Below, piece after piece: positions 2,325 to 62,888 of a stretch of 64,000 nt of DNA. This DNA is from Ferrimicrobium sp. (GTDB lineage: Bacteria > Actinomycetota > Acidimicrobiia > Acidimicrobiales > Acidimicrobiaceae), in contig NZ_DAHVNP010000031.1 of the NCBI RefSeq assembly GCF_027319265.1, forward strand, positions 186,001 to 250,000, read 5' to 3'. The position numbers and the translations under genes are program-made. Position 1 is the stretch's first letter. Each line of letters opens with the position of its first letter. Under the pieces are notes generated by a model. It ran no database searches. It was not told where the DNA came from and saw nothing but the letters and a program-made list of their open reading frames with translations.

Positions 2325-3136
2325 TCCGTCAACCTTTTGAGGCTGACCAGCGCATTCTCGAGCAGCAGGCCACGTAGACCCGAGCTGAGTTCAACAAGCT
2401 CTTCTAGCTCCTCACCAGCTCGCCGTCGACCCTCTGGGCTCCGTTGACGAACGAGCGGCATGAGGAGCTGTTCGATGAGCCCCACCTCGCGATCGGTAGA
2501 GGTGCGATAGTGTCGTAGGTGTCGCGGTTCAAGTCCGAACTTGGCAAAGGAGTGAATAGTTCGGGCGATCTCTATCTCGATAGGGGCGAAGTGACGTTGA
2601 CCAGCGACGGTAACGCCGGCGATGAGCCCGTTACGAATCATCTCATCGATGGCAGTGGCTGGAGCCCCAGTAAGGCGGGCGAGTTCATCGATGGGAAACA
2701 GCTCTGGTCGACTAGTGGAGAGCGGGGCATCGTCGCTGTGAGCGACCTCCGGGGTCGACGGTTCTTCGGTCTCCTGGGAAAATAGGTCGACGCGCGTGTC
2801 CGCATCGAGATGTTCCTTGATTTTGCGAAGCGGCATGTAGGTCGATTTTTGGAGCCGCAGGACCTCGCAGAGCCGTTCTATGTCTGGCTGGTAAAACTTT
2901 CGGTACCCGGCGGCATTGCGCTCGGGTGCGATCAACCCTTGGCTCTCGAGAAAACGAATCTTGGAGATCGTCACCTCGGGGAACTCCTGTTGGAGGAGCG
3001 TGAGCACCTCTTTGATGGAAAATTCTTTTGCTGATTCCCCTCGCAAAACCTCCCAGCGCGGCGTTGTCAGCTTCCCTGACCCTGCTGCAGGAATAACAGG
3101 CGGAACTTGCCGATCTGTATCTCGTTGCCCGGGCAC
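2312..3136 (-). CDS. ftsR: MerR-family regulator, FtsR-like
   Basis: Up to 274 residues. A MerR winged helix-turn-helix begins around residue 39 (FSIKEVLTLL) with VTISKIRFLESQGL and GYRKFYQPDIERL. The C-terminal half holds a second helical region (about 145-270). The arrangement matches actinobacterial FtsR (Rv1828 type), described as an activator of ftsZ. The gene follows garA in the same direction. The frame extends 70 bases into garA from a GTG at 3136; the conserved domain would allow a start further in, near 3047 (a TTG close behind GGGAGG), so the true start is unresolved. Translational coupling to garA is likely. Confidence 0.85.
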   Translation of the reverse strand: MPGQRDTDRQVPPVIPAAGSGKLTTPRWEVLRGESAKEFSIKEVLTLLQQEFPEVTISKIRFLESQGLIAPERNAAGYRKFYQPDIERLCEVLRLQKSTYMPLRKIKEHLDADTRVDLFSQETEEPSTPEVAHSDDAPLSTSRPELFPIDELARLTGAPATAIDEMIRNGLIAGVTVAGQRHFAPIEIEIARTIHSFAKFGLEPRHLRHYRTSTDREVGLIEQLLMPLVRQRSPEGRRRAGEELEELVELSSGLRGLLLENALVSLKRLTDQSS

Positions 3137-3546
3137 AATTTCTCCTCCTCCACCCGCTCTCGGTCCACATAGGTCCCGTTGAGCGAACCAGCATCTTTGA
3201 TGTAGTACCCCTCATCACGCAGTTCCACCTCCGCGTGGCGTCGGGAGACGGTCACATCGTTCAAGAAGATATCACTATCAGGATGTCGGCCGATACTCAT
3301 GATCTTGCGATCCAACTGAAACCATGAACCTGCCTCCTGTCCAATCTGGATCATCAGATACCCGTAGCCGCCCGTAGGGGCAGGCTCCATGCTCTCCGTC
3401 CCCTCCTCTTGAACGAGCACGGATGGATCGATGACATCGAGTGACCCAGTAGTCTCCTCGGGGCGCTCAAGCAGCCGCGCACCGCAGGCAGCACAAAAAT
3501 GAGCTGATGGTGGATTCACTTCAAGGCACTGCGGGCAGGTTGACAT
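3067..3546 (-). CDS. garA: GarA/OdhI-like FHA domain protein with N-terminal zinc ribbon
   Basis: 159 residues. The N-terminus carries a double CxxC zinc ribbon (CPQC and CAAC, residues 4-22). A threonine pair in EETTGSLD (about residue 30) resembles the ETTS phospho-switch of GarA. The FHA domain (about 65-155) has the phosphothreonine-binding motifs SIGRHPDSDIFL, VSRRHAE and SLNGTYVDRE. In mycobacteria and corynebacteria, phosphorylation by PknB/PknG-type kinases makes the FHA domain close on its own tail and releases 2-oxoglutarate dehydrogenase and glutamate dehydrogenase. The gene starts three bases after the gcvH stop, and its 3' end overlaps the ftsR frame. The zinc ribbon is an addition relative to mycobacterial GarA. 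Confidence 0.9.
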   Translation of the reverse strand: MSTCPQCLEVNPPSAHFCAACGARLLERPEETTGSLDVIDPSVLVQEEGTESMEPAPTGGYGYLMIQIGQEAGSWFQLDRKIMSIGRHPDSDIFLNDVTVSRRHAEVELRDEGYYIKDAGSLNGTYVDRERVEEEKLCPGNEIQIGKFRLLFLQQGQGS

Positions 3547-3549
3547 GTT

Positions 3550-3930
3550 CTACTCGCTGTGGAGCAGTTTGCGGTAGGCCTCGAGATCGAGCAGTTGTTC
3601 GGTTGTGCCGGCAGTGACGGTGATCCGGCAGATCCAACCCTCCCCATAGGGGTCGCTGTTGAGTAGCTCAGGGCGGGTGTTGAGTTCTTCGTTAACCTCG
3701 GCGATGACACCTGCGACCGGTGCAAAGATATCGGAGACGGACTTTGTTGACTCGACTTCAGCGATCGAATCGCCGACGGCGACGGATCTTCCTAGTTCCG
3801 GAAGTCCTACGAAGACGACATCACCGAGGGCATCCTGGGCGTAGTCGGTGATCCCCATCGTTGCGGTACCGCCATCACTCAGGACCCACTCGTGCTCGGC
3901 GGTGTATTGAAGATGTTCTGGAAAGTTCAT
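3550..3930 (-). CDS. gcvH: Glycine cleavage system H protein
   Basis: About 126 residues, the usual length. The protein opens MNFPEHLQYTAEHEWV, and the lipoyl lysine is in VESTKSVSD (about residue 62). It shuttles the aminomethyl group on lipoate between the P, T and L proteins. ATG 3930 is preferred to a TTG at 3939; no ribosome site is visible for either. It lies in the pgsA-manC-gcvH-garA-ftsR run, away from gcvT/gcvPA/gcvPB on the other strand, so H protein may be controlled separately from its partners. The gcvH-garA-ftsR linkage is the same as in M. tuberculosis. Confidence 0.95.
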   Translation of the reverse strand: MNFPEHLQYTAEHEWVLSDGGTATMGITDYAQDALGDVVFVGLPELGRSVAVGDSIAEVESTKSVSDIFAPVAGVIAEVNEELNTRPELLNSDPYGEGWICRITVTAGTTEQLLDLEAYRKLLHSE

Positions 3931-4032
3931 AGTTGCCAAGGCTAACGGCTAATCGGCGTCGGTGCTGACTCGCAGCGAAAAAAACTGAGAATCATCATCA
4001 TTGTGCGCCTTCACGTAGGGGCACGATGAGAT

Positions 4033-6549
4033 CTATGACAGGTGAGGAGCACTATCACGGATGGTGCGCACCTGTTCATGAAGCTTGGCGATCATGGCAT
4101 TCGCAGCAGCATCGTCGTCGTCAGAGACCCAGACCTTCAAGAGGGGCTCTTGTTGGTCTGGCGCGATGAGCCAAAACCGATCACCGTCACCGACGCGTAT
4201 TCCGTCAATCACGATCAGTTGTTCGTTGGAGTCAGACTCAGCCCGCGTTCGCAACTCCCGCATGGTGTAGCCCATCTGCGCATAGCTCACTGAAATCTCA
4301 TCCACGTGGACCTTTGGCACCTGGATGCCCCTGCGCAGCCTCGACAGCGGCTGGCGGACATGCTCGAGCCCTGAGAGCAAATAGGCGAGGCTCACGGCCG
4401 CATCGGGAACCGAGGTGAGATTGGAGAACAGGAAAAGTCCTTGCCCGCCCACGCCGAGCGCTGGGACTCCGCTTGCGCGCACGCGACGACTGATATCGTT
4501 TAAGTCCAGTCCGGCCCAGGTAAAGGTGATAGCTGCATCATTGGCTAACTTCTCCAACGTGCTTGGCATGTTGACAGGCGCCACCACCTCCTGGATCCCA
4601 TCACTTTGGATGACCAGTTTGGTCAAGAGTGCCGCGAGTTCAGCATCGCTGAGCGTGACCCCTTCGTCATCGATGACGGTGATACGCTCCGCCCCAGCGT
4701 CGACTAGGAGGCCCAGCTGTGCCGAGGATGCGACGACGAGGCGGGCGAGGGACTGGAGTTGAGCGTGGGCATCATGGGTGATTGATCGAATCGTCGATGG
4801 ATAGGAGTTGACGGCGAGGACATCCATGCCCAGTGAACTGAGCACCTGAGGAAGCGAGAGATTGCCGCTTCCAAAGGAGAAATCGATCACGACTTTTGCA
4901 CCCAGGTTACGGATGCGCGTCATGGGGAGCTGCGCGTTGAGCTCAGCCTTCCAGCTCTCAAAGGAGCGCGGGTAGGCACGCAGGTCACCGACCTCTGAAC
5001 CTGAGACACGTCGGAAGTCCTCCCGCTCCAGCGCACGCTCGATCTTGCGACGATCACCCGAGGGAAGGTCACACCCAACTTCATTGACCAGATGGATGAG
5101 GATCGCCTGTGGGTCCTGGGGGTCGAGGGCGACGCGAACGCCGGCCCGGCTGTCGGAGCGAGCAACCAGGTGCCGCAGAACCGGGAGCGTCGAGACCTCT
5201 AAGTCCTCAACATCCATCCCCACCGAGTTAAAGCCGACCATCATGGCGCGTTTGATCGCGCGGGCGGATCGCGAGGTATCCCGTGCGGCCATCACGACGG
5301 AGTGCAAGGGCAGCATGGAACCATAGGCCATCGCGATACGGCACGCGAGCTCTGGGGTAATGTCGATGTTGGCCAGCCCGGCGATGCCTAGTGGGCCAAA
5401 GACAGTGCGGGGTGAACCCGCTTCCCAAACGATCGAGTTGGTGACGGTAGAGAGCGGTTCAATCTTCTTGGCTGGGTAGATCTTGATGTCGGGGGCTAAG
5501 ACAGCTTCGCGGCCGACGTAGACCCCATCGGCGATGATCACTCCATCGTTGACGACGGAGCGGGAACGGATCTCCGCGCCTCGACCGAGAATGGCGGCCC
5601 TGATGCGAGACGCCTCGCCGACAAAGACATGGTCAAAAACCACACTTCCAGAGAGCACGGAGCCCGTCTCAATGCGCGCATTGTCCCCGAGGATCGTGTA
5701 GGGACGAACCTCAACGCCAGGCCCGAGATAGACGTAGTTGCCGATCAGTGCGGGCCCTTCAATCTTGGCAGTCGGATGCACTTCGCAATCCTTGCCGATC
5801 ATGACGCCGCCCTGAAAGCTAAAACCCTCCAAGTGCGTCTGGCTACGACCGTCGAGGACGTCGCGTCCTGTCTGGAAAAACCCTCCGAAGGTGCCAACGT
5901 CGGCCCAATACCCTTCGGACACGTAGCCGTAGAGAGCCTCACCGTCAGCGAGGAGGCCAGGGAACACCTCGCTCGAGAAGTCAACGGGTCGATCTGTCGG
6001 GATAGTGTCTAAAACCTCGGGCTCTAGCACATAGATGCCGGTGTTGACGGTATCGGTGAAGACCTCACCCCAGGTCGGCTTTTCAATCAGTTGTTCGACC
6101 TTTCCGGTGGTATCGGTCGCCACGATACCAAACTCGGTTGGTGCGTCTACGGAGGTGAGCACCATAGTCGCCTTGGCGTTGCGGTGTTGGTGAAACGCGA
6201 TCGCCTCGCTCAGATTGATATCGGTGAGAACATCCCCGCTGAGGACGAGAAAAGTGCCACGCACAAGATGCCTGGCGTGGGCTACCGCGCCTGCGGTACC
6301 AAGGGGTGTCTCCTCTTGTAGGTAGCGCACTGACACACCAAATTCGGCGCCATCACCAAGGTAGTTACGGATGGCGTTGCCAAGATATGCGACCGTCACA
6401 ATGATATCGGTAACGCCATGCGCTGCCAGTAGCTCCACGACATGCCCGATCATTGGTTTGTTGGCGATTGGCAACATCGGCTTTGGTGTCGTGCTCGTGA
6501 GCGGCCGTAGTCGGGTCCCTTCTCCTCCCGCGATAATGACTGCCTGCAT
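4033..6549 (-). CDS. Fused sugar-1-phosphate nucleotidyltransferase and phosphohexomutase-like protein
   Basis: 838 residues. ATG 6549 is preceded by AGGAGG at five bases. Residues 1-230 are a nucleotidyltransferase (IIAGGEGTRLRPLT, then PKPMLPIANKPM). Residues about 245-375 are a left-handed beta-helix rich in hexapeptide repeats. Residues about 380-838 resemble an alpha-D-phosphohexomutase (GSMLPLHSVVMAARDTSRSA). This layout matches large mannose-1-phosphate guanylyltransferase/phosphomannomutase proteins of cyanobacteria and actinobacteria. The TASHNP active-site serine loop expected after domain 1 is not visible; the region around residues 475-495 reads GVRVALDPQDPQAILIHL. The mutase half may therefore be inactive or regulatory. 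Substrate (mannose or glucose) is not decided by sequence. Confidence 0.88.
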   Translation of the reverse strand: MQAVIIAGGEGTRLRPLTSTTPKPMLPIANKPMIGHVVELLAAHGVTDIIVTVAYLGNAIRNYLGDGAEFGVSVRYLQEETPLGTAGAVAHARHLVRGTFLVLSGDVLTDINLSEAIAFHQHRNAKATMVLTSVDAPTEFGIVATDTTGKVEQLIEKPTWGEVFTDTVNTGIYVLEPEVLDTIPTDRPVDFSSEVFPGLLADGEALYGYVSEGYWADVGTFGGFFQTGRDVLDGRSQTHLEGFSFQGGVMIGKDCEVHPTAKIEGPALIGNYVYLGPGVEVRPYTILGDNARIETGSVLSGSVVFDHVFVGEASRIRAAILGRGAEIRSRSVVNDGVIIADGVYVGREAVLAPDIKIYPAKKIEPLSTVTNSIVWEAGSPRTVFGPLGIAGLANIDITPELACRIAMAYGSMLPLHSVVMAARDTSRSARAIKRAMMVGFNSVGMDVEDLEVSTLPVLRHLVARSDSRAGVRVALDPQDPQAILIHLVNEVGCDLPSGDRRKIERALEREDFRRVSGSEVGDLRAYPRSFESWKAELNAQLPMTRIRNLGAKVVIDFSFGSGNLSLPQVLSSLGMDVLAVNSYPSTIRSITHDAHAQLQSLARLVVASSAQLGLLVDAGAERITVIDDEGVTLSDAELAALLTKLVIQSDGIQEVVAPVNMPSTLEKLANDAAITFTWAGLDLNDISRRVRASGVPALGVGGQGLFLFSNLTSVPDAAVSLAYLLSGLEHVRQPLSRLRRGIQVPKVHVDEISVSYAQMGYTMRELRTRAESDSNEQLIVIDGIRVGDGDRFWLIAPDQQEPLLKVWVSDDDDAAANAMIAKLHEQVRTIRDSAPHLS

Positions 6550-6588
6550 GCAAACCTCCTATGTGACCGACGATCCTGTACGGTCTTG

Positions 6589-7179
6589 CTAGGGCAGTTC
6601 CTCCGGATGAGCTGTTCTCGCAAAGTTTAGGGCGTAGAACACCAGTGCAACGTAGAGCAGCACCACTGCCAAGGTCATCAGGGCGACTGCTGTCTCCTTC
6701 ACGATCGGCTGGTGCAGGCCGTCACCAAGAACTACCAAAGGAAATCCTAGCAGCAAGCCAAAGGTGCCCGCCTTGCCGATCCAGACCACGTCGTTGCGAT
6801 GACGGTGGATGAGCAGGTCAGCAAGGACTGTGATCCCAACAAGTATCTCCCGTAGAAGCACAATGACGAGAAGCCAGGTCGGAACGAGGTGGTCCAAGAG
6901 CGCAGCGATGGCCACCACGATGAGGACGACGCGGTCCGAAAGTGGATCAAAGATCTTGCCAAAGGTCGTCACCGCACCAGTACGACGCGCGACGTAGCCA
7001 TCGAGAAAGTCAGTGATGCCCATCACCGCGAGCAGGATTGCGGCGGCGATGTCGTGTCGCCCGTGTGAGAGCAGAATCCACACAGGAAGCAGGAGGAGTA
7101 CGCGAAGTGCCGTGATGAGCGAAGGGATCGCCGTGCGTGTGATGGCCAATAGCCGATGCTTGTTCACGGCTCTTAGCAT
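6589..7179 (-). CDS. CDP-alcohol phosphatidyltransferase (PgsA-like)
   Basis: 196 residues with about five membrane helices. The signature D-G-x2-A-R-x8-G-x3-D-x3-D is present as DGYVARRTGAVTTFGKIFD followed by PLSD (about residues 57-80). The enzyme would transfer an alcohol phosphate to CDP-diacylglycerol to make phosphatidylglycerophosphate, phosphatidylinositol phosphate or a similar lipid. It is the first gene of the minus-strand run, 39 bases before the nucleotidyltransferase fusion. Mycobacterial pgsA2 (Rv1822) also lies a few genes from gcvH-garA, which supports orthology, but the head-group substrate cannot be read from the sequence. Confidence 0.85.
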   Translation of the reverse strand: MLRAVNKHRLLAITRTAIPSLITALRVLLLLPVWILLSHGRHDIAAAILLAVMGITDFLDGYVARRTGAVTTFGKIFDPLSDRVVLIVVAIAALLDHLVPTWLLVIVLLREILVGITVLADLLIHRHRNDVVWIGKAGTFGLLLGFPLVVLGDGLHQPIVKETAVALMTLAVVLLYVALVFYALNFARTAHPEELP

Positions 7180-7230
7180 AGACCTCGCCGTCGATTGTGG
7201 GAATTCTCCGTTTAGTCAAACAGCCTACAG

Positions 7231-15444: not shown

Positions 15445-15948
15445 TCAGCGCGGTGGGTGCTGTCTCGCCTCCGGAACCAGTCGGTACAGGATGACAAGGA
15501 CTGCCAGGATGAGAATACCTGAGATCAGGTGACCCACAAGATTCGTAAGCGGGGTGACCAAGGCGACGACCACGACGAGAGCGGAGACGATGCTGGCGCC
15601 GAGAAGGAAGCTCCACTCAAGGGGACCCAACGTGGAACGCAAGGGCTCCGGTGAGCTAGCCAGAAGAAAGCCAATGAGGTCGAAGACGCCGAGGGGCACC
15701 AGGAGGAGGAGGTGTGCTGTCGTGCGAGGCGGACTGATGGCTACCATCGCAATTGGGCCAACTAGGCCGGTGGCGACCAAGAGCGAGGTACCCTCCTTCC
15801 CCCGGGTCGTGCCGATCACCGCTGTCAGGATGGTCACTGCACCGATGAACCACGTCGCGGTGGATCGCTGAGCCACGACGACAAGGGCTAACGCAACCCC
15901 AAGGACGATGAGGGCTAGACCACTGTATCTCGTCGAACTAGTCGACAT
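15445..15948 (-). CDS. Multi-span membrane protein ending the MoxR/DUF58 operon
   Basis: 167 residues with about five hydrophobic segments and no recognised family. ATG 15948 overlaps the end of the DUF58 gene by 11 bases, so it is the last gene of that operon and probably translationally coupled. A longer frame to 16008 lies wholly inside the DUF58 gene and is not favoured. A role in the same membrane or envelope function is inferred from context alone. Confidence 0.7.
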   Translation of the reverse strand: MSTSSTRYSGLALIVLGVALALVVVAQRSTATWFIGAVTILTAVIGTTRGKEGTSLLVATGLVGPIAMVAISPPRTTAHLLLLVPLGVFDLIGFLLASSPEPLRSTLGPLEWSFLLGASIVSALVVVVALVTPLTNLVGHLISGILILAVLVILYRLVPEARQHPPR

Positions 15949-17116
15949 GCGAGGGTCCTGGAGTGGGGGAGAGGGTTGGGTTCTCCAAGTCCACCACGCT
16001 GACACCAAGCCGCGTGATATCCTCGAGGAGCTGGCGGCGAATCAAGCCACCTAGTCGTTCGGCGTCGTCGCCATCGGTGGTCTGCGATCCTACGGGCCCG
16101 ACGAGCGTCAGCGGATGCCCTGCAAAACGCAGGTCGCGTACTGCCTGTACCATTCGACGATCTTGGAGCGTGCTGAGGACTACGACCGCCGCTGACCGAG
16201 GGATTGCGTTTTGTGGCAGGAGATCGATGCGTTTGTCAGCAGCAGTCGCGTACGGACGAACCTGCAAGAGCCGCTCAGCGATCAACCGTTCCTGATAACG
16301 ACCGGAGGCCGGAGGAATCCAACCGATGGTTCCACCAAAGACGACAAGACCCACGCGATCGTAGTTACGTAGATGCACCCGGGCCAGGTTGGACGCTACT
16401 TTGGTGAGGTTGGCTAACTGCACGGGTGAAAACGTGTCGAGGAAAATAACGAGATCAAGCGGGAGCTCGCTGCTGCGCTGGTTTAGCCACACCGTGCCGG
16501 TCCGGGCTGTTGCCTTCCAGTTGACGTCGGCCAGAACGTCGCCAGGACCTGCCTGGCGAACATCGACAAACTCGAGACCGGCGTGCGTCTTCTTGTTCGA
16601 GCGATGACGGCCAACGGCGAACTGTGCATCCACGGCTCGAGAGAGCGGACTGATCTCCTCGATAGCGGGAAAGACTTTGATAGGACCAGGTACCTCGGGG
16701 TGCACCACATCCTCAAAGAGTCCGAATGGTCCCTCCCTCACGAGGGTACTCGCCTCGAGGTGATGGCTTCCAAAACAGGGGAAGATGACGGTGATCATCG
16801 CCGACTCAGACGCGACTTCAGCGTCGCCCAAAAGAAGATCTCCGCTGCGCAGCTCGATCCGATAGCGCTGTGATCGAAGCGCCTCGAGGTTGATCCGGAA
16901 CGTCATCGCATCTCCCTCGAAACACATCGCAGAGTCACCAGCCTCGAGTTTGACAGCACCGAAGGGTGTCCTCGGCCACAATAAACCGATGGCAACCAGG
17001 AGCATGAGGGGTGCACCGATGACGATGATGGCAGGGCCATCAATCACTGCGAAGATAAGGGTTACCCACGTAGCGAGCAACAACAGTGCAAATCGAGCTG
17101 TGTAGCGACGCTGCAT
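15938..17116 (-). CDS. DUF58 domain protein, membrane anchored
   Basis: 392 residues. Two membrane segments lie at the N-terminus (about residues 8-50). The DUF58 core motif region is visible as DVRQAGPGDVLADVNWKATA (about residue 195), followed by a von Willebrand-like strand LDLVIFLDTFSP. Its ATG overlaps the TAA of the MoxR gene. MoxR-DUF58 pairs are thought to act as chaperone-like assembly systems, with the ATPase remodelling a target bound through the von Willebrand-like domain. The actual target is unknown. Confidence 0.85.
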   Translation of the reverse strand: MQRRYTARFALLLLATWVTLIFAVIDGPAIIVIGAPLMLLVAIGLLWPRTPFGAVKLEAGDSAMCFEGDAMTFRINLEALRSQRYRIELRSGDLLLGDAEVASESAMITVIFPCFGSHHLEASTLVREGPFGLFEDVVHPEVPGPIKVFPAIEEISPLSRAVDAQFAVGRHRSNKKTHAGLEFVDVRQAGPGDVLADVNWKATARTGTVWLNQRSSELPLDLVIFLDTFSPVQLANLTKVASNLARVHLRNYDRVGLVVFGGTIGWIPPASGRYQERLIAERLLQVRPYATAADKRIDLLPQNAIPRSAAVVVLSTLQDRRMVQAVRDLRFAGHPLTLVGPVGSQTTDGDDAERLGGLIRRQLLEDITRLGVSVVDLENPTLSPTPGPSHVD

Positions 17117-18093
17117 TAATGTGGGTTGCTACCCTCGTTGAGGGCGACAGGTGCCGGCACCGCCTGCACCGCTTCGTTGACGATGCTCTCTCGGCGTACG
17201 CCACGTATCCACGCCTCGGGACTTAGTCGAATGCGATGGCCCAGTGCGGGCAGCGCCATGGCCTTCACATCCTCTGGAGTGACAAAATCTCGACCAGCTA
17301 CCGCAGCCGATGCTCGAGCGAGCAAGGCGAGTGCGATGGCCCCTCGTGGGCTCGCGCCTAACGAGACTGACGAACGATCACGCGTGTAGCGCGTGAGCGC
17401 GACGATGTAGGCGACGATCGCGTTCGAGACAAAAACCTTAGGCAGTGTTCCTCGAACCTCTTGCAGCTGTTCGCTATCGAAGATCTGTCGCACCGACGTG
17501 TTTGCCAGCCCGGTTAGCAGGTGATCGTTCACGATCTGCTCCTCATCGGTCTGGCTGGGATAGCCGATTGTGGTAGCGGCGAGGAAGCGATCGACCTGGG
17601 CCTCTGGCAGTGGGTATGTTCCTTCGAACTCGATTGGGTTCTGAGTCGCGATCACGATAAAAGGGTCCGGTAGCGGGTAGGTGACGCCATCGACGGTGAC
17701 TTGCGACTCTGCCATCGCCTCGAGCAGTGCTGACTGGGTCTTTGGCGAGGCACGATTGAGTTCGTCAGCAAGCAATATATTGGTAAATATTGGTCCCTTC
17801 CGAAACTGCATTTCCTGGTTCTTAGCATCCCAAATAGTCAGACCAATGATATCACTTGGCAGGAGATCTGGGGTGAATTGAATGCGTGCGAAACCAAGAC
17901 CCAATGTCCCCGCCAGGCTACGCGCAAGTAGTGTCTTCGCCACGCCTGGCACGTCCTCTAAAAGTACATGGCCCCCGGCAAACACCGATGCAACGACCAG
18001 CTCCACTACACTATCTTTTCCATGAATAGCATGATTCATCTCATTGATAATGTCTCGTATGGTAGCGTGATATCTCGTTATTGCTGGTTCCAA
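17116..18093 (-). CDS. MoxR-family AAA ATPase
   Basis: 325 residues. Start TTG 18093 is supported by GGAGG four bases upstream. Walker A is degenerate in the usual MoxR way (LEDVPGVAKTLLAR, residues 46-59). Walker B lies in ILLADELNRASPKTQSALLE, sensor 1 in IATQNPIEFEGTYPLPEAQ, and the C-terminal lid follows. It is coupled on both sides (overlaps of 16 bases and 1 base) with membrane proteins of the same operon, so the complex probably acts at the membrane. Confidence 0.93.
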   Translation of the reverse strand: MEPAITRYHATIRDIINEMNHAIHGKDSVVELVVASVFAGGHVLLEDVPGVAKTLLARSLAGTLGLGFARIQFTPDLLPSDIIGLTIWDAKNQEMQFRKGPIFTNILLADELNRASPKTQSALLEAMAESQVTVDGVTYPLPDPFIVIATQNPIEFEGTYPLPEAQVDRFLAATTIGYPSQTDEEQIVNDHLLTGLANTSVRQIFDSEQLQEVRGTLPKVFVSNAIVAYIVALTRYTRDRSSVSLGASPRGAIALALLARASAAVAGRDFVTPEDVKAMALPALGHRIRLSPEAWIRGVRRESIVNEAVQAVPAPVALNEGSNPH

Positions 18094-24736: not shown

Positions 24737-25615
24737 GATACTTGGTGAGTGCTCCTGGTACACGTTCTTTTCTACCCTTCGTATCCTCTGCCACCCATCT
24801 CTGGTTATGGCAGCCGACCTTGTTGGCAATGCCTCCACGTCCAACTACGAACGTACTAGATCATCGCGACGCTTGCACACCATCATCCGGTAGTTCCAAA
24901 AATTTAGTTTCTAGCAGGCGCTTGGGGAGGCTCAGTCTGAGAGTGCTCGTTGACGAGTGAAAGTGTGCGTCAGGCGTGCTCATAGCTGGGAATTCTCTGC
25001 TTGTGGATGTAGGAGGCCATGAAGTATATCAAGACAATTGCTACGTAATTGTAGTCTTCCGGTTCGCTAATCCCAACCCTTCTAGCATGGATAAGGTGGA
25101 GAGGGTCTGCATAGTGCGTTAGGGGAGACCTCCTTTGCCCGTCGTGCCTTCCCGATAGAACAGAGGCCTGGTGGGAGGTCAAACCCTCGTCATTGTTGTG
25201 GTGATCGACCAGCACGAGGGGTCGGTTTGGCCGGATCATCGCGATCTATCCAAAGGCAGAACCGTGTCCCGTATCGTGAGTAATTTCCACGCCTACACAT
25301 CGAAGCAGTAGCTCCACCTTGCAGGGTCTTTATTCTCGGTAGCGTGACGCAGCGGTAGGGGATGTGGATCACTCCAGATGGTGCTAGGGATAGAATTCGC
25401 CTACTTCTTGGAAGGCCTGTCGTATTCGGTACGCCGTGAACACGAGTAACGATTGTCGTCGCCAGTGAACGACGTCGATGAGCTACCTGGGACCAATGGA
25501 TGTGCACTTCGAGGAGGGAGAGCTGGAATTAGGGCTACTTCGGTACTCCACGACGGCAGCCTTGCGCCGTGAGAACCTGATGCCACAGGCAATCATTGAT
25601 TGTCCTGCGAACCCT
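24737..25615. other. Gene-poor stretch
   Basis: About 880 bases with only short frames on both strands. The minus-strand frame 24970-25239 ends in a hydrophobic stretch (NYVAIVLIYFMASYIHK) but has no credible start and matches nothing I know. AGGAGG at about 25007-25012 precedes only a nine-codon frame. The region may be decayed DNA. Confidence 0.4.
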
Positions 25616-26467
25616 CTACATCGGCGAAGGGAGGTCATTCGGTAGTTGTACAATGGGAACGGGACTGTTTACTACAACCGGGTGCAGGCTGTCAAGATGT
25701 TTTGTCATCCAAGCAGCCAGAGCAGCACGTTGATTATGGATAGAACCCCCAGGTGCGTACTGGTCTCCGGCAATCTTCTTTCTCATCTCTGTGGTTGTAA
25801 GCGCATCGCGGAGAAGATGGACGGCTTCCGGAGAGATAAAACTCTGTTTCGCAGTTTGACCACTGGGCAGCGACGGCGGTGGTGAACCCGCTACCAAGTA
25901 CCCATGGTAGTTTTTCTGCGCCTGTTGGAGCGCAGTGGAATACGGTACCATTTGATTCGTCTTCGCCGCGTATTGTAAGAGCATCACATCCAGCGTTGCA
26001 CTAGCAACGGCCTGCAATGAGTAGGACCTTGAAGACTGTTCGATTGACGTAACGACAGTCGTCTCAATCGTCGACATGCTCATCGACGGCGATACACGAC
26101 TAACCAGATCGTTCACTTCGAAGCCATGCATCATTTGACCGATACCTGATGCAGATTCTGTATATCTCCCGTCGCTGACGGCGATGCCCTGGGCGGCTAT
26201 TAGGGCGGCATCGGCTGATTGTGATGGCAACTTCGCCTAGGCCTGCTGGACTACCGCTGCGACCGCACCGCCCGGAACCGGTGAGGTTGGCTGTGATGGC
26301 GAAACGTCGCTCGATACCCGGTGACTATGGGCAACTGCTTGTTGTCGAGCCCCGCCTTCGATACTGACATAAGCAGCCAGCGCCCCAACACCTATGCAGG
26401 CGCCGACAGTCAGCATCACTACGCGCGAGCGCAACCGACGTGCATCGCGACCTGCGTTCTTGCCCAT
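25616..26467 (-). pseudogene. Membrane-anchored extracytoplasmic protein interrupted by one in-frame TAG
   Basis: Two open frames (26237-26467, 76 residues, and 25616-26230) are in the same phase and separated only by a TAG at 26237-26239 plus two codons. Read through, they make one protein of 283 residues. It has a basic start (MGKNAGRDARRLRSR), a membrane helix at about 17-37, a Ser/Pro/Thr/Val-rich linker, and a helical extracytoplasmic domain with a Pro-rich segment (AGSPPPSLPSGQ). No family recognised. The amber could be a recent CAG-to-TAG mutation or a programmed readthrough site. The second half has no strong start of its own. Confidence 0.6.
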
Positions 26468-26574
26468 TTGTCACCACCCAAAAATCATGCTGTCTGCTTT
26501 AGGTATTACCGTTGACCGTGAATTGCTTCATCTTCAATAACTCAATAGTAGTCGCGAACTGCACCGAATTCAAG

Positions 26575-30000: not shown

Positions 30001-30834
30001 GTGACGCGCATAACGCACAAGAAACTCATCATGGTAGTTGCGTCTCTTGCCTTGATCTTTGCTGCAACCGGGAGCTTCACATTGACGAGGAGATCTGCAC
30101 CGCACCTTGTTCCACTCAAGTCAATACCGACCTCCAAGAACACGGGGGGTCCACCGTGGGAGCCATCGCAGCGTGGAGGCGCGACCAGAAGTGCGATGGT
30201 AAGCTCTCCACTTTGTACGTCGAGCCAGCTTGAGACGCAGTACTGGACAAGTTTGCCGGGATTTGACAACCAGATGAGTGGCTTCAATCTCATCAATAGG
30301 TCAGGGCAGGCATGTTCGCTGCCGGTGTATCCTTCGTCTCTGAATCTGGCAAATGCGGACGGCACCCCAGCGACGATGCCGCTGCTACCCGGTCCGGCGG
30401 GGACAAAGGGATCGAGCGACTTCTTGGCCTATGGGTCCTCTTTAGCTCCCGCGACATCGTCATTTGGGATCCCTCTCAGCCCTGCTCCCATCACCCTCGC
30501 ACCAGGTGGTACGGCAGTAGACATCCTTTTCGGTACCGTCGGTGTCAATCAGCAACCAGGAGATCCCGCTTGTATTTCTACACCCGTCGGAGGTAGCATC
30601 GCCGTCTCACTGGGAAATGGGTCCCCGGTACAGGTTCACATGCCTGCTAAAGCAGGGACGTCAAAGCCGCTAATTGATCCAACTGGAGCTCCCTTTTCGT
30701 CATGCACTGCAATGGCGTTCTCCCCGTTCCTCACCTGGAGTGAGGCGAGTAATCTCGTCGGTGCTCCATATACCCGCACTAGTCAAGGAGATCTCCCGCT
30801 CAAGTACACCGCGGCCTTTATTAACGCGCCGTAG
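30001..30834 (+). CDS. Secreted or membrane-anchored DUF4232-like protein
   Basis: 277 residues from GTG 30001. An N-terminal hydrophobic segment (about 9-27) acts as signal anchor. A Pro/Ser-rich linker leads to a domain starting near residue 70 (SSPLCTSSQLETQYW) with FNLINRSGQACSLPVYPSSL, the N-G/S-x-C pattern of DUF4232-like proteins. Conserved-looking cysteines occur at CTSS, ACSL, ACIS and SCTA and could form disulfides outside the cell. GGGAGGG lies immediately before the start. It is the second DUF4232-type protein in the window. Confidence 0.7.
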   Translation: MTRITHKKLIMVVASLALIFAATGSFTLTRRSAPHLVPLKSIPTSKNTGGPPWEPSQRGGATRSAMVSSPLCTSSQLETQYWTSLPGFDNQMSGFNLINRSGQACSLPVYPSSLNLANADGTPATMPLLPGPAGTKGSSDFLAYGSSLAPATSSFGIPLSPAPITLAPGGTAVDILFGTVGVNQQPGDPACISTPVGGSIAVSLGNGSPVQVHMPAKAGTSKPLIDPTGAPFSSCTAMAFSPFLTWSEASNLVGAPYTRTSQGDLPLKYTAAFINAP

Positions 30835-30910
30835 GTGCCCCATATACCATCCGGACCCCAGGTTTCTACAGTGTGGTTCAGCGGCAAGAGATCAATGAAA
30901 GTAGGCTCCA

Positions 30911-31792
30911 GTGATTGAACGATTTCCCCGACGGATAGGCGGGACAGTAGCTCTCTTAGTGTCGGCCGTTACGATGGTCATCGCGCTTACCGGCACTGTG
31001 GCGTATGCTGGTGATATGCCAACAGGATATTGGTATGGCTCAGACGGCTCCGGGCCACCCCCTCAGGGGACGGGAGTCGAGTACACGATGCCGAACTGTG
31101 GTGGGGCGTATGGCTCGTATATAGGCCAGCTCAACCAAGTGAGTAGCGCTTTCAACGTTGCTTCAGATTAGAATGCGGCTAATACGAATTAGATATCAGG
31201 ACACGGCGTCGGAAGCCAGAACTCTTATTTTATTGCACAACCTCAGTCAGGTCCTTCATACAACGGTACGGCTACTGAAGCAACATTCTGGGGTGAGTCT
31301 CAAGGTAATGCTGCGGTAGAAAACTGGGGTTCATTTTATGGTCAAAGTGGAATCAACTTACCGTCCAACCCGATAATTTATGCAGATCTTGAGAACTCGC
31401 AGTACACCTGGAATTCGGAGGCTACTTCACTAAATCGAGACGTCTTCAACGGATTCTGGAACGAGGTGCATCAGAAGCTCATCTCCATCAAGGGTACTCA
31501 ACGGGAAATCTATGCTGGTGTGTATTCTTCCCCTTACTTCTGGTCTACCTTCATGTCGGGCAGTCTTGGAGCGACATATGAGTGGACTGCGGAGACAACC
31601 TATGGATCATACTCTTCAGGCAATTGTGCGTGTGGCTGGGGTTCACCCCTTGGCTATACGGCGGACTTCTTCGCAGGTTGCAGCCAGAGTTATCCATGTG
31701 CTGTGGCGTGGCAGTGGATTTCGGGATCAGCTGACTATGACCAAGTCTATGGTTCTCAAATCGTAAGCGGCGAAAGCGATACTTGTAACTAG
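30911..31792 (+). pseudogene. Secreted GH25-like (DUF1906-type) protein interrupted by two in-frame TAG codons
   Basis: From GTG 30911 one phase stays open to the TAG at 31790-31792 except for TAG at 31169-31171 and TAG at 31190-31192. The joined product of 293 codons has a signal peptide (about 1-33) and a glycoside-hydrolase-like domain: ATFWGESQGNAA, NPIIYADLENSQYTW, REIYAGVYSSPYFWSTF, and near the end CAVAWQWISGSADYDQVYGS. The acidic pair in YADLEN and the late AWQW are typical of GH25-like barrels that act on cell wall. There is no frameshift in 200 codons after the stops, and flanking residues (SD-x-NAANTN-x-ISG) fit Gln at both ambers. It is either recently inactivated or read through. 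Confidence 0.65.
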
Positions 31793-36871: not shown

Positions 36872-38242
36872 TTAGACAAGAGTACGAGCTGCTCGTGAGA
36901 TCGCTTCGTGGGCTAAGGGATGTTGATCCGCAACTGAAGCGATGTCCGCGATTGTCGCCCCGAGCCTAATCGCCATTGCGAGTTCACCGATGAGCTGACC
37001 TGCCTCCTTCCCCACTACCCAGGCGCCGAGCAAGCGACCCGAGCGAGCGTCCCCAAAGAGTCTGACTTCGCCGTAGGGTTCATTCAGGATCTGGGTGCGT
37101 GCCTCATGATCAAAGGGCGCAGCCACCTCTACTGTGTCGATATTGCGGGTGGTTAGTTCAGCTCGTGTCATTCCTACCCGGGCCGCTTCAGGGAAGGTGA
37201 AGATGGTGGCAGGAATCGTTTGGGGATCGGCCCGATCTACAACTCGTCCTGCGAGGATGTTGTGTGCCACAGCCAACGACTCGCGTGTAGCGGCGTGAAA
37301 TAGCATCTGGGTTCCGGTCACATCTCCAGCAGCAAAGATTGATGGCATCTTGGTCGTGCCACCAGGCCCAACGACCAGCCGCCCCCGTTCATCAAGCAAC
37401 CCAAGTTCCTGGACGCCAGGTGGGTACACTGGATGCCGTCCCGTGGCCAGCAAGACCATATCTGCATCAAAGAACGCCGATGTTGACTGCTGGGAGTAGG
37501 TTACTCGATGATGATCATCGACCTCGATGACCTCAGCGCCGAGTTCCACCCCAATACCCTTGGCTAACCCGTCAGCGACCAGCTTGGCGAAGTCGGGATC
37601 CATACCTGGTAAAAGTTGATCGGCAGCCTCGAACACGGTCACATCGACGCCAAGGGCATGCCACATTGTGGCGACCTCTAAGCCGATATACCCGCCTCCT
37701 ATGACGGCAAGCGTTCTGGGTAATGTGGCAACGGTGGGCGAGACGGCGAACAGGTCTCGGCTCGTGACACAGTGCTCGATTCCTCGGATCGGCGGTATCG
37801 AGATGTCTGATCCGGAAGCAAGGAGAAGATACTTGGCCGTCACGGTCTTGACCTCAGATTTGGTCTCATACGCCACGCTATGAGGGTCCAGGACGGTCGC
37901 GATACCGTCGATCAAACGAAGACGGTCTCCAAACCGTGCAAGTTCTTGATCATGCTGTTGGTAGCGAAGTTGTTGCACAGCGTCCTTGAAAGTGATCAGT
38001 GACCGATAGTCAGGAGGAACTTCTGATGGGAAATATGGCATCGCACGCATACCGCGATACAACTCTGCAGCCTCACGAATGGTCTTTGAAGGAACGCAGC
38101 CTTCAGCCAGACAATTGCCGCTCATGACACCTTTGGGGTCGATCATGAGGACACGCTGGCCCGTGCGAGCAAGCTGGAATGCCGCAGGATAGGCACCGCC
38201 TCCGGCTCCAATGGTGACAAGGTCATAGTCATAGTCAGTCAT
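36872..38242 (-). CDS. lpd: Dihydrolipoamide dehydrogenase-like pyridine nucleotide-disulfide oxidoreductase
   Basis: 456 residues from ATG 38242 (GGAG nine bases upstream); a frame extension to 38308 lacks support. The FAD motif is TIGAGGGAYPAAFQLA. The redox-active disulfide is CLAEGC in GNCLAEGCVPSKT. The NAD motif is AVIGGGYIGLEVATMW, the second FAD motif is MPSIFAAGDVTG, and the C-terminal active-site pair is HPLAHEAIS. The gene stands alone, away from 2-oxoacid dehydrogenase genes. It could serve as the L protein for the glycine cleavage genes in this window, or be a mercuric/glutathione reductase relative; the sequence alone does not settle substrate. Confidence 0.8.
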   Translation of the reverse strand: MTDYDYDLVTIGAGGGAYPAAFQLARTGQRVLMIDPKGVMSGNCLAEGCVPSKTIREAAELYRGMRAMPYFPSEVPPDYRSLITFKDAVQQLRYQQHDQELARFGDRLRLIDGIATVLDPHSVAYETKSEVKTVTAKYLLLASGSDISIPPIRGIEHCVTSRDLFAVSPTVATLPRTLAVIGGGYIGLEVATMWHALGVDVTVFEAADQLLPGMDPDFAKLVADGLAKGIGVELGAEVIEVDDHHRVTYSQQSTSAFFDADMVLLATGRHPVYPPGVQELGLLDERGRLVVGPGGTTKMPSIFAAGDVTGTQMLFHAATRESLAVAHNILAGRVVDRADPQTIPATIFTFPEAARVGMTRAELTTRNIDTVEVAAPFDHEARTQILNEPYGEVRLFGDARSGRLLGAWVVGKEAGQLIGELAMAIRLGATIADIASVADQHPLAHEAISRAARTLV

Positions 38243-39227
38243 CTTGTTTGACTCCAATCCGATAGGTCTAGGAACAAAGGTAGACGAGGGCGACCATCCG
38301 GCCCCCATCTAGGCACCTAATTGGGACCTTTGACTAGGTGAAAGGGTAAGGAGACCATCAAGGCTTGTCGAAAAGATCACGCGGACTGCTATGCCGAGTA
38401 CGTCATCTCCTACGTTGCCGCGTGTGCCTACCCCATGGTTTGGGACCGTCACGAGTCCAGCACCTCCAATGGTAGAGTTTGCATTTGGCTCCCTAAGTAT
38501 CGCTGCCACTGACGTTGCCCCCGATGAAGGGCACCGGTGGACGTCTGCAAGCAAGGTAGGCTGCTCGTGGAACGTTTGCGACGACGAGCCATCGCAACAA
38601 TGAGTTCACGAAACTCTGCTTAACCTACACAAACAGCGATTCCTCTTCGAGAACAATTGGCACATGATCAATAACATCCCCGGCTGTGCGCCACCTATTG
38701 ACCCCGGCTGACCTCATGAGAGCAATCCCAAAGCCAACAAAAAACATTTGCAGGGGATCACTCGTCTGGTCATGAGGTTCAACAGCACGCCGAGGCGACC
38801 GGAAGGCCTCCTCGTGCCCGGTCCACTACTTCTCAGATGGAGTGATACACCTCGGCTCCAGTGGAGACTCCTACCTGCCCTCAGTTCCTTAGCCCTGGCA
38901 TCTTGCACGAAAACTAGGTCAATCTACCTGCAGCGCTTCGGAGAAGGAGAGGAGAGTACGCCTTACCAACTGCCCTAGCGCTGCTTCATGGAACGCTCCC
39001 TCACCGAGGATCAACGGTAAAGTAACTTGATCACCAATGATCGACAGCTCAACGAATCATCTCACACCGACAAGCTTGCGTCAAGCGCGACAACCTTTAC
39101 AGATCCGCAGCAGCCATCTCATTCCTCGATCCCTGTGGACGAGGGTTGCGCTGAGAGGAAGGACCCCCTCTTGGCTAGCCTTCGAGGGAGATATCCTTGA
39201 TTCCCAGTCTTTCCACCGCTGTACTCA
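38243..39227. other. Gene-poor stretch between lpd and nrdJ
   Basis: Nearly 1 kb. A minus-strand frame at 38309-38554 gives protein-like sequence (GVGTRGNVGDDVLGIAVRV) with only a TTG start and no ribosome site; a plus-strand frame overlaps it at 38391-38603. Either may be a remnant. The remainder shows no gene. Confidence 0.4.
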
Positions 39228-52920: not shown

Positions 52921-53433
52921 GTGGATACCATAGAAATCGTTGCACAACGGCTCGCTACTCTCGTCATCAGCGAGGAACAGTACCGTAGGATACGGGCTCT
53001 GTGGTCTCGTTTTTGGCGCTATGCGACTGGCTCCGTCATCACTGCAGTCTTTTCACAGCTGGTACTGTTTTTCGTCTTTTCGGTACTGCGTCTTGAGAAC
53101 GCACGTGACTCAGCGATCACGGCGACGCTTATCGGTGCGATACCATCGTATTTCATCAATCGCTACTGGGCGTGGGGGAAAAAGAGTCCAACCTCCTTTC
53201 GGCGAGAGGTTCTTCCCTATATTCTCATGGCCGTAACGGGACTGATCTTTTCTACATGGTTCGTAGACTTTTCTCACTCACATGCCGGCTTTCTAGGGAC
53301 TTCACGACTTGCCACTGACATCGTCGTGCAAGGGTCCTATCTCCTCTCCTTCGTGCTCTTATGGTTTGGCAAGTTCACCTTCATGCACAAGTGGCTTTTC
53401 CGTAGTGCACCCCTTGCCGAGTCCACGCCGTAG
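52921..53433 (+). CDS. GtrA-family membrane protein
   Basis: 170 residues with four predicted membrane helices. The motif RFWRYATGSVITAVFSQLVL and the loop SYFINRYWAWGKK (about residues 77-89) are typical of GtrA proteins, which are thought to flip polyprenyl-phosphate-linked sugars or organise their transferases. The end also carries the family-like FGKFTFMHKWLF. The gene is divergent from the epimerase and may use its product. Confidence 0.85.
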   Translation: MDTIEIVAQRLATLVISEEQYRRIRALWSRFWRYATGSVITAVFSQLVLFFVFSVLRLENARDSAITATLIGAIPSYFINRYWAWGKKSPTSFRREVLPYILMAVTGLIFSTWFVDFSHSHAGFLGTSRLATDIVVQGSYLLSFVLLWFGKFTFMHKWLFRSAPLAESTP

Positions 53434-53629
53434 GTAAACTCCTCGGTTCCACAAGTGTGTCGTCTGCTACGACCAGTCAGCCGCTCGGGTACACCTTGTG
53501 CGGCTGGACGCGGTGTCACGAACGGCCAATCACAACACACCTACCGCCCTGTCTTACCCCTCTTGGTCTGATCGCGGCCGATCACCTCGACCCTCTGTTT
53601 GAGGATTCATCTGCTCGCTACTTACGGTT

Positions 53630-54523
53630 CTATCTCGATTCCGTCGCGGCGCGAATCCGTGCGCCCAGTTTCACCCAGTCCGCATAGGTCCTCCGCAATA
53701 GGCGCTGTGGCCCCGCTGGGCTCATCACCTCCTCGCCCAACCCCAAATCCAGTGGCAATCCTCCACGGGAAAGAACAGAAACGGGATCGACAAAGAGTAC
53801 CGAATCGCCGCAAAGAACCGCGAGATCGGCAGCAATAGCGCGCGTAGCGGACGTCCAACCCGTCACCACATACCTTGTCGCATTGTCGGCACGAAAAATA
53901 GTGGCTGCGCAGTCAAAGATGGCTGCTGCAAGGAGCACCTGAGCATCGGTAGTCGCCGATACCCCCACCAACACTCGCCGTCCCGCCGAGACCGCACTCA
54001 AACATCCGTCGAGTGGGTGCACCGAGGCCCCGACGATCTCGGTCACCGATCCCAACAGTGACTCCAATGTCCAAAGAGTTGAACTCCCCCAACCATGGAC
54101 CACACCCCTTGCCGGCGTTGCATCCGTGTTAGGCCCACCCACCACCAAGGTGCCCTCGCCGATGACAACCCCTACATTACGTGGATACTGTGCTGCAAGC
54201 ATCGACGGCATGTCAATGACATAGCCTTGATTCCCTTCGTGCCAAAAGTGATACAGGTCGGGGGCGGCCAATGTGAGGCCGATGGCAGGGCCACCCATTA
54301 TTGACTGAAGCGCCCGGCCAGGATCTCGAAGTGGTCCGCCAGGGGTTGCGTCAAGGGCGATGGCTACTACCGCATCAGGGTGTGCGTCAAAGAACAGCCT
54401 CCACTCCTGGGGACTCGATGGCCGCCGTAATCTCAGGGTTGGGTCACCGGAACGAAGCGGAAGCTGATAGAGGTCACACGCCTCGACGATATAAGGATGC
54501 CGAACAGGGTTCGCTGATGCCAT
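53630..54523 (-). CDS. Hypothetical protein, about 297 residues
   Basis: ATG 54523 has AAGG about eight bases upstream; the frame extends to 54586 without support. There is no signal peptide or clear membrane helix. The sequence alternates hydrophobic strands and helices (AVVAIALDATPGGPL, RNVGVVIGEGTLVVGG, RRVLVGVSATTDAQVLLAA), suggesting an alpha/beta fold, but I do not recognise the family. A glycine-rich GEGTLVVGGPNTDATP (about 145-160) may be a binding loop. Its neighbours (GtrA-like gene convergent, MBL-rhodanese gene same strand but 430 bases away) do not define a role. Confidence 0.6.
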   Translation of the reverse strand: MASANPVRHPYIVEACDLYQLPLRSGDPTLRLRRPSSPQEWRLFFDAHPDAVVAIALDATPGGPLRDPGRALQSIMGGPAIGLTLAAPDLYHFWHEGNQGYVIDMPSMLAAQYPRNVGVVIGEGTLVVGGPNTDATPARGVVHGWGSSTLWTLESLLGSVTEIVGASVHPLDGCLSAVSAGRRVLVGVSATTDAQVLLAAAIFDCAATIFRADNATRYVVTGWTSATRAIAADLAVLCGDSVLFVDPVSVLSRGGLPLDLGLGEEVMSPAGPQRLLRRTYADWVKLGARIRAATESR

Positions 54524-60125: not shown

Positions 60126-61838
60126 TCAAATCAATACTCTCAATATCTCTTCTATCGAAGTAACTCCTTGCAATACTTGAACCAAACCGGCTTGGCGCAG
60201 GGTGATGAACCCCTGGGCCGCAGCGATCCGGTGCAGCTCCTCCATCGGTGCACGTGCAGCGATCGCTCGCCCAAGTGGCTCCGTAATCTCCAACAACTCA
60301 TGCAAAGCGACTCGCCCGTAGTAACCGGTTCGAGAACAACGTACGCATCCTTTGGTATCGGCCCGATAGAGCGTGAAGGCCTCGTCCTTCGCTGGGACGA
60401 TGAAGCCAAGTTCTCGTAAGCCTTCACGTGTGATCGAGGAGGGGATACGACAGTTGAGACAGAGCCGTCTTGCGAGACGCTGCCCTACCACCGCGGTGAG
60501 CGCAGATGCGACGAGATAGGGTTCCACCCCCATCTCAAAAAGCCTGGTTGGCGTGGAGAGTGCATCGTTGGTGTGCAGTGAGGTGAGGACAAGGTGGCCA
60601 GTGAGCGCCGACTCGATCGCAATCTCTGCCGTCTCACGGTCACGCACCTCCCCCACCAAGATGATGTCGGGGTCGGCCCGGAGAATGGACCGAAGAGCCG
60701 ACGAAAAGGTGACGCCTGCAGCAGGGTTGACCTGCATTTGTGCGATGCCGCTCAACTGGTACTCTACCGGATCCTCGACTGTGATGATATTGGTCTCCAC
60801 CCGGTTCAGTCGGTTGAGCGTTGCGTACAACGTGGTCGACTTGCCTGAACCAGTGGGACCAGTGATCAGGATCGTGCCCCAAGGCTGGTCGGTCAGCCGA
60901 TCATAGAGCCGTCGAACATCAGGGAGGAATCCAAGATCTTCGAGGTCGAGCCGAGCAGTACCGGTGTCAAGTACACGGATGACGACCTTCTCGCCGAGAT
61001 AGGTCGGAAGGGTCGCCACCCGAAGATCAACCTTCTGGCCCTCAATGCCTACGCTAAAACGTCCATCCTGTGGTCGGCGCCGCTCGGAGATGTCAAGACC
61101 CGCGAGAATCTTGATTCGCGTCATGAGTTTGGCATGAACGTTGACGTTCAGCCGGCCTACTTCGTGCAGTACCCCATCGATACGGAATCGGATCCGGATG
61201 GCCCCATTGATCGGTTCAACGTGGATGTCTGATGCGCGGTCGAGGACTGCTTGAGAGACCATCTGATTCACGAGCGAGACGATGGGACCATCTTCTACGA
61301 CGTCCGCAACATCAGACTTGACAGCCTCCTTCCTCTCTTCAGCCTGCTCGGAGAGATCGAACTGCTCTTTTAGATTCAGTTGGGAACGCTCAATGGTGGC
61401 GAGCAGCTGCGAATAGGTCACCACCACCAGATGAAGATCCCGCCGCAAGACGGTCTTGAGATCATCCTTGGCGACTACGTCGGTCGGATCAACCATGGCG
61501 ACCATGATCGAGCTAGACTCCTCACGAATGGGGAGAGCAAGATAGCGGCGCGCCGCTCGAGAAGGCAACAGTGCGACGACATCTGGATCGAAGGTGAGAC
61601 CGTTTAGATCGAGCTCCTCGACACCATAGCGTTCAGAGAGAAAATGGCATAGCGCAACCTCATCGACCAGTCGACCTTCCACCAAGGCTCTGATCAACGA
61701 TCGCTGCTCGTCTTTGGTTCCCAAGAGCTGTCGAAGTGTATCCTCGGCTACAAGCCCTGCATTCACGAGACCGCGAGCAAGCGAAGAGAGTTCAGGGATC
61801 GTGAAGGTACGCTGTGCCTCGGGCTCGCTCATATCCAT
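60126..61838 (-). CDS. pilB: Type IV pilus extension ATPase
   Basis: About 570 residues from ATG 61838 (ATG 61832 or a start at 61862 are possible; no ribosome site decides). Residues about 10-150 form an MshEN-type N-terminal domain that may bind cyclic di-GMP. Walker A is ITGPTGSGKSTTLYAT, the Asp box is ITVEDPVEYQL, Walker B is DPDIILVGEVRDRETAEI, and the C-terminal zinc site has CLNC and CVRC. It drives pilin polymerisation. No pilin or prepilin peptidase gene is in this window. Confidence 0.93.
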   Translation of the reverse strand: MDMSEPEAQRTFTIPELSSLARGLVNAGLVAEDTLRQLLGTKDEQRSLIRALVEGRLVDEVALCHFLSERYGVEELDLNGLTFDPDVVALLPSRAARRYLALPIREESSSIMVAMVDPTDVVAKDDLKTVLRRDLHLVVVTYSQLLATIERSQLNLKEQFDLSEQAEERKEAVKSDVADVVEDGPIVSLVNQMVSQAVLDRASDIHVEPINGAIRIRFRIDGVLHEVGRLNVNVHAKLMTRIKILAGLDISERRRPQDGRFSVGIEGQKVDLRVATLPTYLGEKVVIRVLDTGTARLDLEDLGFLPDVRRLYDRLTDQPWGTILITGPTGSGKSTTLYATLNRLNRVETNIITVEDPVEYQLSGIAQMQVNPAAGVTFSSALRSILRADPDIILVGEVRDRETAEIAIESALTGHLVLTSLHTNDALSTPTRLFEMGVEPYLVASALTAVVGQRLARRLCLNCRIPSSITREGLRELGFIVPAKDEAFTLYRADTKGCVRCSRTGYYGRVALHELLEITEPLGRAIAARAPMEELHRIAAAQGFITLRQAGLVQVLQGVTSIEEILRVLI

Positions 61839-61976
61839 GGCATCGGCCGAAAACCAGCGCAACCCAAGTCTGGGCTACTCCGACCAGTACCCTTCCCACA
61901 GTACCTGCACTTGGCTGTCTCGGCCCAAGCGGGGCTCCATCCCATGGCTTGGCACCCTTACACGTTGGAAGCCACC

Positions 61977-62621
61977 ATGAGCATGTTCTCACTCACACGA
62001 CCATCATGCCTCGCATCAGTACTTGATCGTGCCCTCCACCATCGTGGACCCCACTCAAGGTTTCACCCATCCGCAGCGGGTACCGCATACATCCCCAACC
62101 GCGCCGAACTCCATTCTTGGCTTCGACAACTGTGTACTATGGCCATCGATCACAACGAAACCCCCGGGATGCTCGAACTGGCTGAGCTGGCCCGACGTCT
62201 CCGCCAACCATCGACAGCGAGACTCGACACAGCGCTCCCTGCTATGCCGCCTCCGCTTGATAGCAGTCGTGTTGATGATGCCGGGGGGACGGGAGGACCG
62301 GTCTTGCCCGTCGCGGTAGCCGGGGTCGAGTGGACAGGCGTTGGCCTCGTCACCACACCGGACCCGGCAGATAACCTCATCATCGGTATCGTCACGCGTG
62401 TGGAAGCATACGTCGTATTGCCATCCTGGTTGAGATCACTGATGCGGATCCCCATAAATTGGACAATCCTTGCCAAGCTCGAACGCAGGCGCGTTGACAA
62501 GGAGCCAATCGCGAGCGTCACCAGATGCTTCCCGTCCTCCCGAACACCACTTCAGCTGGGTTGCCTCGGTGGTGCTAGCCGGCGCTACGCTGACGTGTCT
62601 GGGCGATCTCTCTTGTGCTAG
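61977..62621 (+). CDS. Doubtful hypothetical ORF between pilB and aroE
   Basis: 214 residues from ATG 61977, with GGAAG five bases upstream. The first third is rich in Arg/His/Pro and looks unlike a folded protein; a more protein-like central part reads LPVAVAGVEWTGVGLVTTPD and IIGIVTRVEAYVVLPSWL. An opposite-strand frame (62150-62521) is Ser/Thr-rich and looks like a shadow. It interrupts an otherwise minus-strand cluster. The 267 bases to aroE hold nothing supported. Confidence 0.3.
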   Translation: MSMFSLTRPSCLASVLDRALHHRGPHSRFHPSAAGTAYIPNRAELHSWLRQLCTMAIDHNETPGMLELAELARRLRQPSTARLDTALPAMPPPLDSSRVDDAGGTGGPVLPVAVAGVEWTGVGLVTTPDPADNLIIGIVTRVEAYVVLPSWLRSLMRIPINWTILAKLERRRVDKEPIASVTRCFPSSRTPLQLGCLGGASRRYADVSGRSLLC

Positions 62622-62888
62622 TTGAAGAAGTTCCAGCTGAGTATGCAGGCTTTTGTGACCGTTAACACCCTTTCCATTGAAAGAAGCCTTGACGCGAACC
62701 TTTACTGGAACTTCGAACTTGAGTGGCGAATCTTCACAGTCGTGCCTACGAATCGATCGATCGTCTATCCGTTCGCTGGCCTATCGGATCGAAGTTTCGT
62801 GGGAAGGTGCTCCAATCCTCTGGTACTCCACAACTGCGCTACTTCGATGGCTAGTTATCAGCCATGGTGTCCAGTTGATCTCCGCTGA

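Follow-up and report, generated by a model that had tools for sequence, protein, structure and literature searches.

The reading frame described here raises the question whether amber codons inside a gene are translated in this organism or mark a gene that has only just died. In the stretch of DNA that was analysed (the window, 64,000 nucleotides) a single frame on the forward strand runs from GTG 30911 to TAG 31790-31792 and is interrupted solely by TAG 31169-31171 and TAG 31190-31192. It comprises 293 codons and the stop; the two internal TAGs, codon 87 and codon 94, are 21 bases apart. The initial annotation had described one phase broken by these ambers only, with no frameshift downstream, and re-reading the frame confirmed both points. 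At the base composition of the window approximately 10.5 stops are expected in 293 random codons (P = 0.0016 for two or fewer), and the run of 199 stop-free codons after the second amber has a probability of 0.0007. No indel was found in the rest of the frame. The features of the locus are collected in Table 1.

Table 1. Position and basis of the features at the locus.
Feature	Position	Strand	Basis
Intact DUF4232-like secreted-protein gene; ends in TAG; purifying selection (dN/dS about 0.3)	30001..30834	+	Profile match, comparison with relatives
Probable pseudogene with two nonsense codons; secreted protein, weakly Rv2525c/DUF1906-similar	30911..31792	+	Frame, orthologues, profile comparison
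Likely Sec signal peptide, codons 1-33; cleavage after AYA (RRIGG...LTGTVAYA / GD)	30911..31009	+	By eye; conserved in orthologues
First amber TAG, codon 87; Ser in G006, G002 and G001 (TCG in each)	31169..31171	+	Orthologue alignment
Second amber TAG, codon 94; Gln in G006 (CAG), G002 (CAA) and G001 (CAA)	31190..31192	+	Orthologue alignment
D-x-E motif (D-L-E), 3' of both ambers; D159 and E161 in the G006 protein	31385..31393	+	Family alignment
Terminal TAG, common to both intact orthologues (G006, G002)	31790..31792	+	Orthologue alignment

The source genome is a 2.88-Mb draft of 82 contigs, estimated to be 95.9% complete, and the window lies within a contig of 357 kb. Of the named relatives of the gene, the closest is found in a metagenome-assembled genome of Ferrimicrobium sp., and the host is probably an iron-oxidising, Ferrimicrobium-like member of the Acidimicrobiia. 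For comparison we used six other genomes of the genus (G001-G006). The gene is intact in G006 (88% identical) and in G002 (83%), and the frame can therefore be regarded as the body of a real gene. In G001 the frame can be followed from codon 1 to about codon 132 and then departs from that of the intact copies and stops; in G004 what remains is a C-terminal part of about 55 codons, the terminal stop being lost; and in G003 and G005 the gene was not found. The family is dispensable in the genus, since four of these six genomes lack it or carry a shortened form. A second intact copy was not found elsewhere in the source genome.

All three relatives that span the amber sites (G006, G002, G001) carry sense codons at both of them, and neither internal stop occurs in any relative, so that the ambers are confined to one genome. 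The residues at these positions, which the initial annotation had proposed to look up, are Ser at codon 87 and Gln at codon 94. Its suggestion that both ambers could stem from CAG fits the second site, where the relatives have CAG or CAA, and fails for the first, where they have TCG.

To judge the age of the damage we consider the substitutions. Pairwise dN/dS is approximately 0.6 in all pairs, including the pair of two intact genes, compared to about 0.3 for the adjacent DUF4232 gene; five genes located further downstream, compared with G004, range from 0.01 to 0.15. By this measure even intact copies of the gene are under weak constraint. On the branch of the window copy 24 amino-acid changes and two stops stand against 12 silent changes, a ratio that does not differ from neutral evolution (P = 0.25), and the branch of the intact G006 gene is alike, with 13 amino-acid and seven silent changes (P = 0.29). 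Two stops among the 38 substitutions of the window branch are as many as expected by chance (2.1). Family-invariant residues are changed at two of 44 positions in the window copy, two of 44 in intact G006 and four of 46 in intact G002. Since these residues are no more changed than in the intact copies and no indel is present, the gene body appears to have been translated until not long ago.

Taken together, weak constraint even in the intact state and the absence of further decay indicate that the nonsense changes are recent or, otherwise, an error of the record. The earlier proposal that the gene died very recently is in agreement with the sense codons of the orthologues and with a copy that is otherwise no more degraded than they are. 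Against a pseudogene one can hold the frame without indel, the retained invariant residues and a dN/dS as between intact genes. This lack of further decay fits a recent loss, but translated ambers or a record error would show it as well.

The first possibility to be weighed is that the two TAGs reflect assembly errors or minority variants, most cells having an intact gene. Two nonsense changes within 24 bases and no other sign of decay would be in line with this, as would the draft state of the genome with its 82 contigs. The substitutions of the window branch are also mildly crowded near the ambers (9 in 60 bases, P = 0.045), but this crowding is not significant at other interval sizes. The window sits in a contig of 357 kb, and two independent base errors would have to occur together. 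We consider an assembly error unlikely and take the ambers to be real. Gene conversion was considered as well with regard to the crowding and rejected, the effect being marginal only (P from 0.05 to 0.35 depending on interval size).

A second possibility is that the ambers are translated, by a suppressor tRNA, by recoding or by programmed readthrough, and that the full-length protein is made. The 199 open codons past the second amber and the dN/dS of about 0.6 are arguments for it. The initial annotation had suggested looking for an amber-decoding tRNA; the 47 tRNA genes, all typed, cover all 20 amino acids, and none of the 47 has a CTA anticodon in this genome of 95.9% estimated completeness. 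Release factor 1 is intact, scoring above the NCBIfam cut-off with its PVT and GGQ motifs present. TAG is the terminator of 11 of the 34 large ORFs in the window, and a stop inside an ABC_tran domain was found in none of the 53 such domains in the genome.

We further tested six TAG-fused frames of the window with TAG read as Gln (3070-7215, 15620-17377, 25532-26470, 36875-38605, 53319-53939 and 61233-62885). Pfam domains in them lie only between TAGs, or there are no domains, and none crosses a TAG. An example is 7215-3070 on the reverse strand, where four successive genes share one reading frame and are divided by TAGs only; with TAG as sense they would look like a single frame of 1382 codons. 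Their domains (CDP-alcohol phosphatidyltransferase, nucleotidyltransferase/phosphomannomutase, glycine cleavage H, FHA) do not extend across a TAG. These six frames gave no indication of another gene in the window split by TAG, and genome-wide amber recoding was rejected in view of the intact release factor, the tRNA set and the usage of TAG.

Every sign is that the organism reads TAG as a normal stop. With release factor 1 intact, no CTA tRNA, TAG as an ordinary terminator, also of neighboring genes, and no tested domain across a TAG, amber recoding is unsupported, as is the reading that these two ambers are read through. Of the three observations named beforehand as marking a plain pseudogene, the third being the absence of downstream peptides, two were made: sense codons in the relatives and no amber-decoding tRNA. 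Two successive unassisted readthrough events would yield very little product. Readthrough is favored by the argument of Belinky et al. 2021 (PMC7918605) that certain functional genes of bacteria retain in-frame stops, and the present case resembles theirs in having TAG where relatives have CAG and a dN/dS below 1. Their stops are orthologous, whereas those reported here are confined to one genome and common to no relative. Translation of the ambers is thus very improbable, and so is the variant in which both codons are passed in vivo with no dedicated suppressor tRNA involved, giving some full-length secreted protein. Least likely of all is a use of the 86-residue N-terminal product itself as a truncated secreted peptide: the signal peptide and the first 50 mature residues are kept and dN/dS upstream of the ambers is lower than in the rest of the gene in every pair, but this bias is also present between two intact genes and hence not caused by truncation, and most family-invariant residues lie beyond the ambers.

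In our view the locus is most probably a recently inactivated, dispensable gene for a secreted protein in an organism that uses TAG as stop. Two point changes in the lineage of this genome would have turned a Ser codon and a Gln codon into nonsense codons 87 and 94, and the affected product would be a secreted, glycoside-hydrolase-like accessory protein. Translation would halt at codon 87 and leave at most the signal peptide plus some 50 residues of the mature protein. The invariant D-x-E is located downstream of both ambers and would therefore be missing from the truncated product, together with most other family-invariant residues. As no in-frame start codon was found between 31193 and 31466, a functional restart is unlikely, and the product is presumably non-functional. 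Such a gene would resemble recent bacterial nonsense pseudogenes in being single-copy, in carrying two nonsense substitutions where sister species have sense codons, in having no frameshift so far, and in the losses seen in other species of the genus. Two close nonsense codons without an indel are slightly unusual for them; otherwise nothing is distinctive here.

The function of the intact gene can be approached from its family, which is present in 9 of 147 near genomes and 6 of 395 genomes of the class (own genome included). No sequence matches in Pfam, NCBIfam, PHROG or PDB were obtained for the gene or, where tested, for its family; six family members had no Pfam match at E-values up to 5, and no homologues were found in viral contigs or plasmids. 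Complete members start with a stretch resembling a signal peptide, and the signal peptide assigned earlier to this gene looks like one by eye and is conserved in the orthologues. D-x-E, which could represent the active-site acids, is invariant in all eight aligned members, and these share aromatic motifs as well.

The annotation as a GH25-like domain could not be upheld: apart from the acidic D-x-E motif the gene shares almost nothing with GH25 lysozymes (PF01183) at profile level (hhalign probability 3%), and the source genome holds no PF01183 gene. The alternative label, DUF1906-like, survives in part. The gene has no match above the curated cut-off to the Rv2525c-like family (PF08924, DUF1906) nor to any other of the collections named above, but hhalign gave a probability of 38% with a weak collinear match over 75 columns, centred on P-I-x-x-D-x-E and G-V-Y-S-S. 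True PF08924 members are encoded elsewhere in the source genome (contigs C18 and C77) and are clearly unlike this gene. A structure predicted from two sequences was unusable (mean pLDDT 28). A distant kinship to DUF1906-type glycoside-hydrolase-like proteins is plausible, if weakly so.

A further hint arises from the neighborhood. Genes of the family adjoin DUF4232 (PF14016) genes in several families of the class (window 30001-31792; L007, L008, L082), which suggests that both secreted proteins may act together outside the cell. At L080 the neighbor is a similar-looking secreted protein with no Pfam match. G003 retains the upstream DUF4232 gene though it is without the gene discussed here. In G004 (L064 10348-10858) the last approximately 55 codons directly adjoin a class II ribonucleotide reductase gene and the DUF4232 gene sits on a different contig (C10); a rearrangement therefore appears to have broken the locus there. 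In G006 (L002 2375-2485) the 3' end of the gene including the stop is duplicated, with 37 identical bases at a spacing of 74. The spacer between the two genes (30835-30910) contains the 20-base unit ATATACCATTCGGACCCCAG once in the window and twice in G002 (L003 1412-1451), so that the number of repeats varies.

The result is mainly a negative one, as one candidate for amber recoding, in an acidophilic actinobacterium, can be struck off. What is gained, on a small scale, is a secreted family that evolves fast, has a narrow distribution and no Pfam model, and has been lost repeatedly in one genus.
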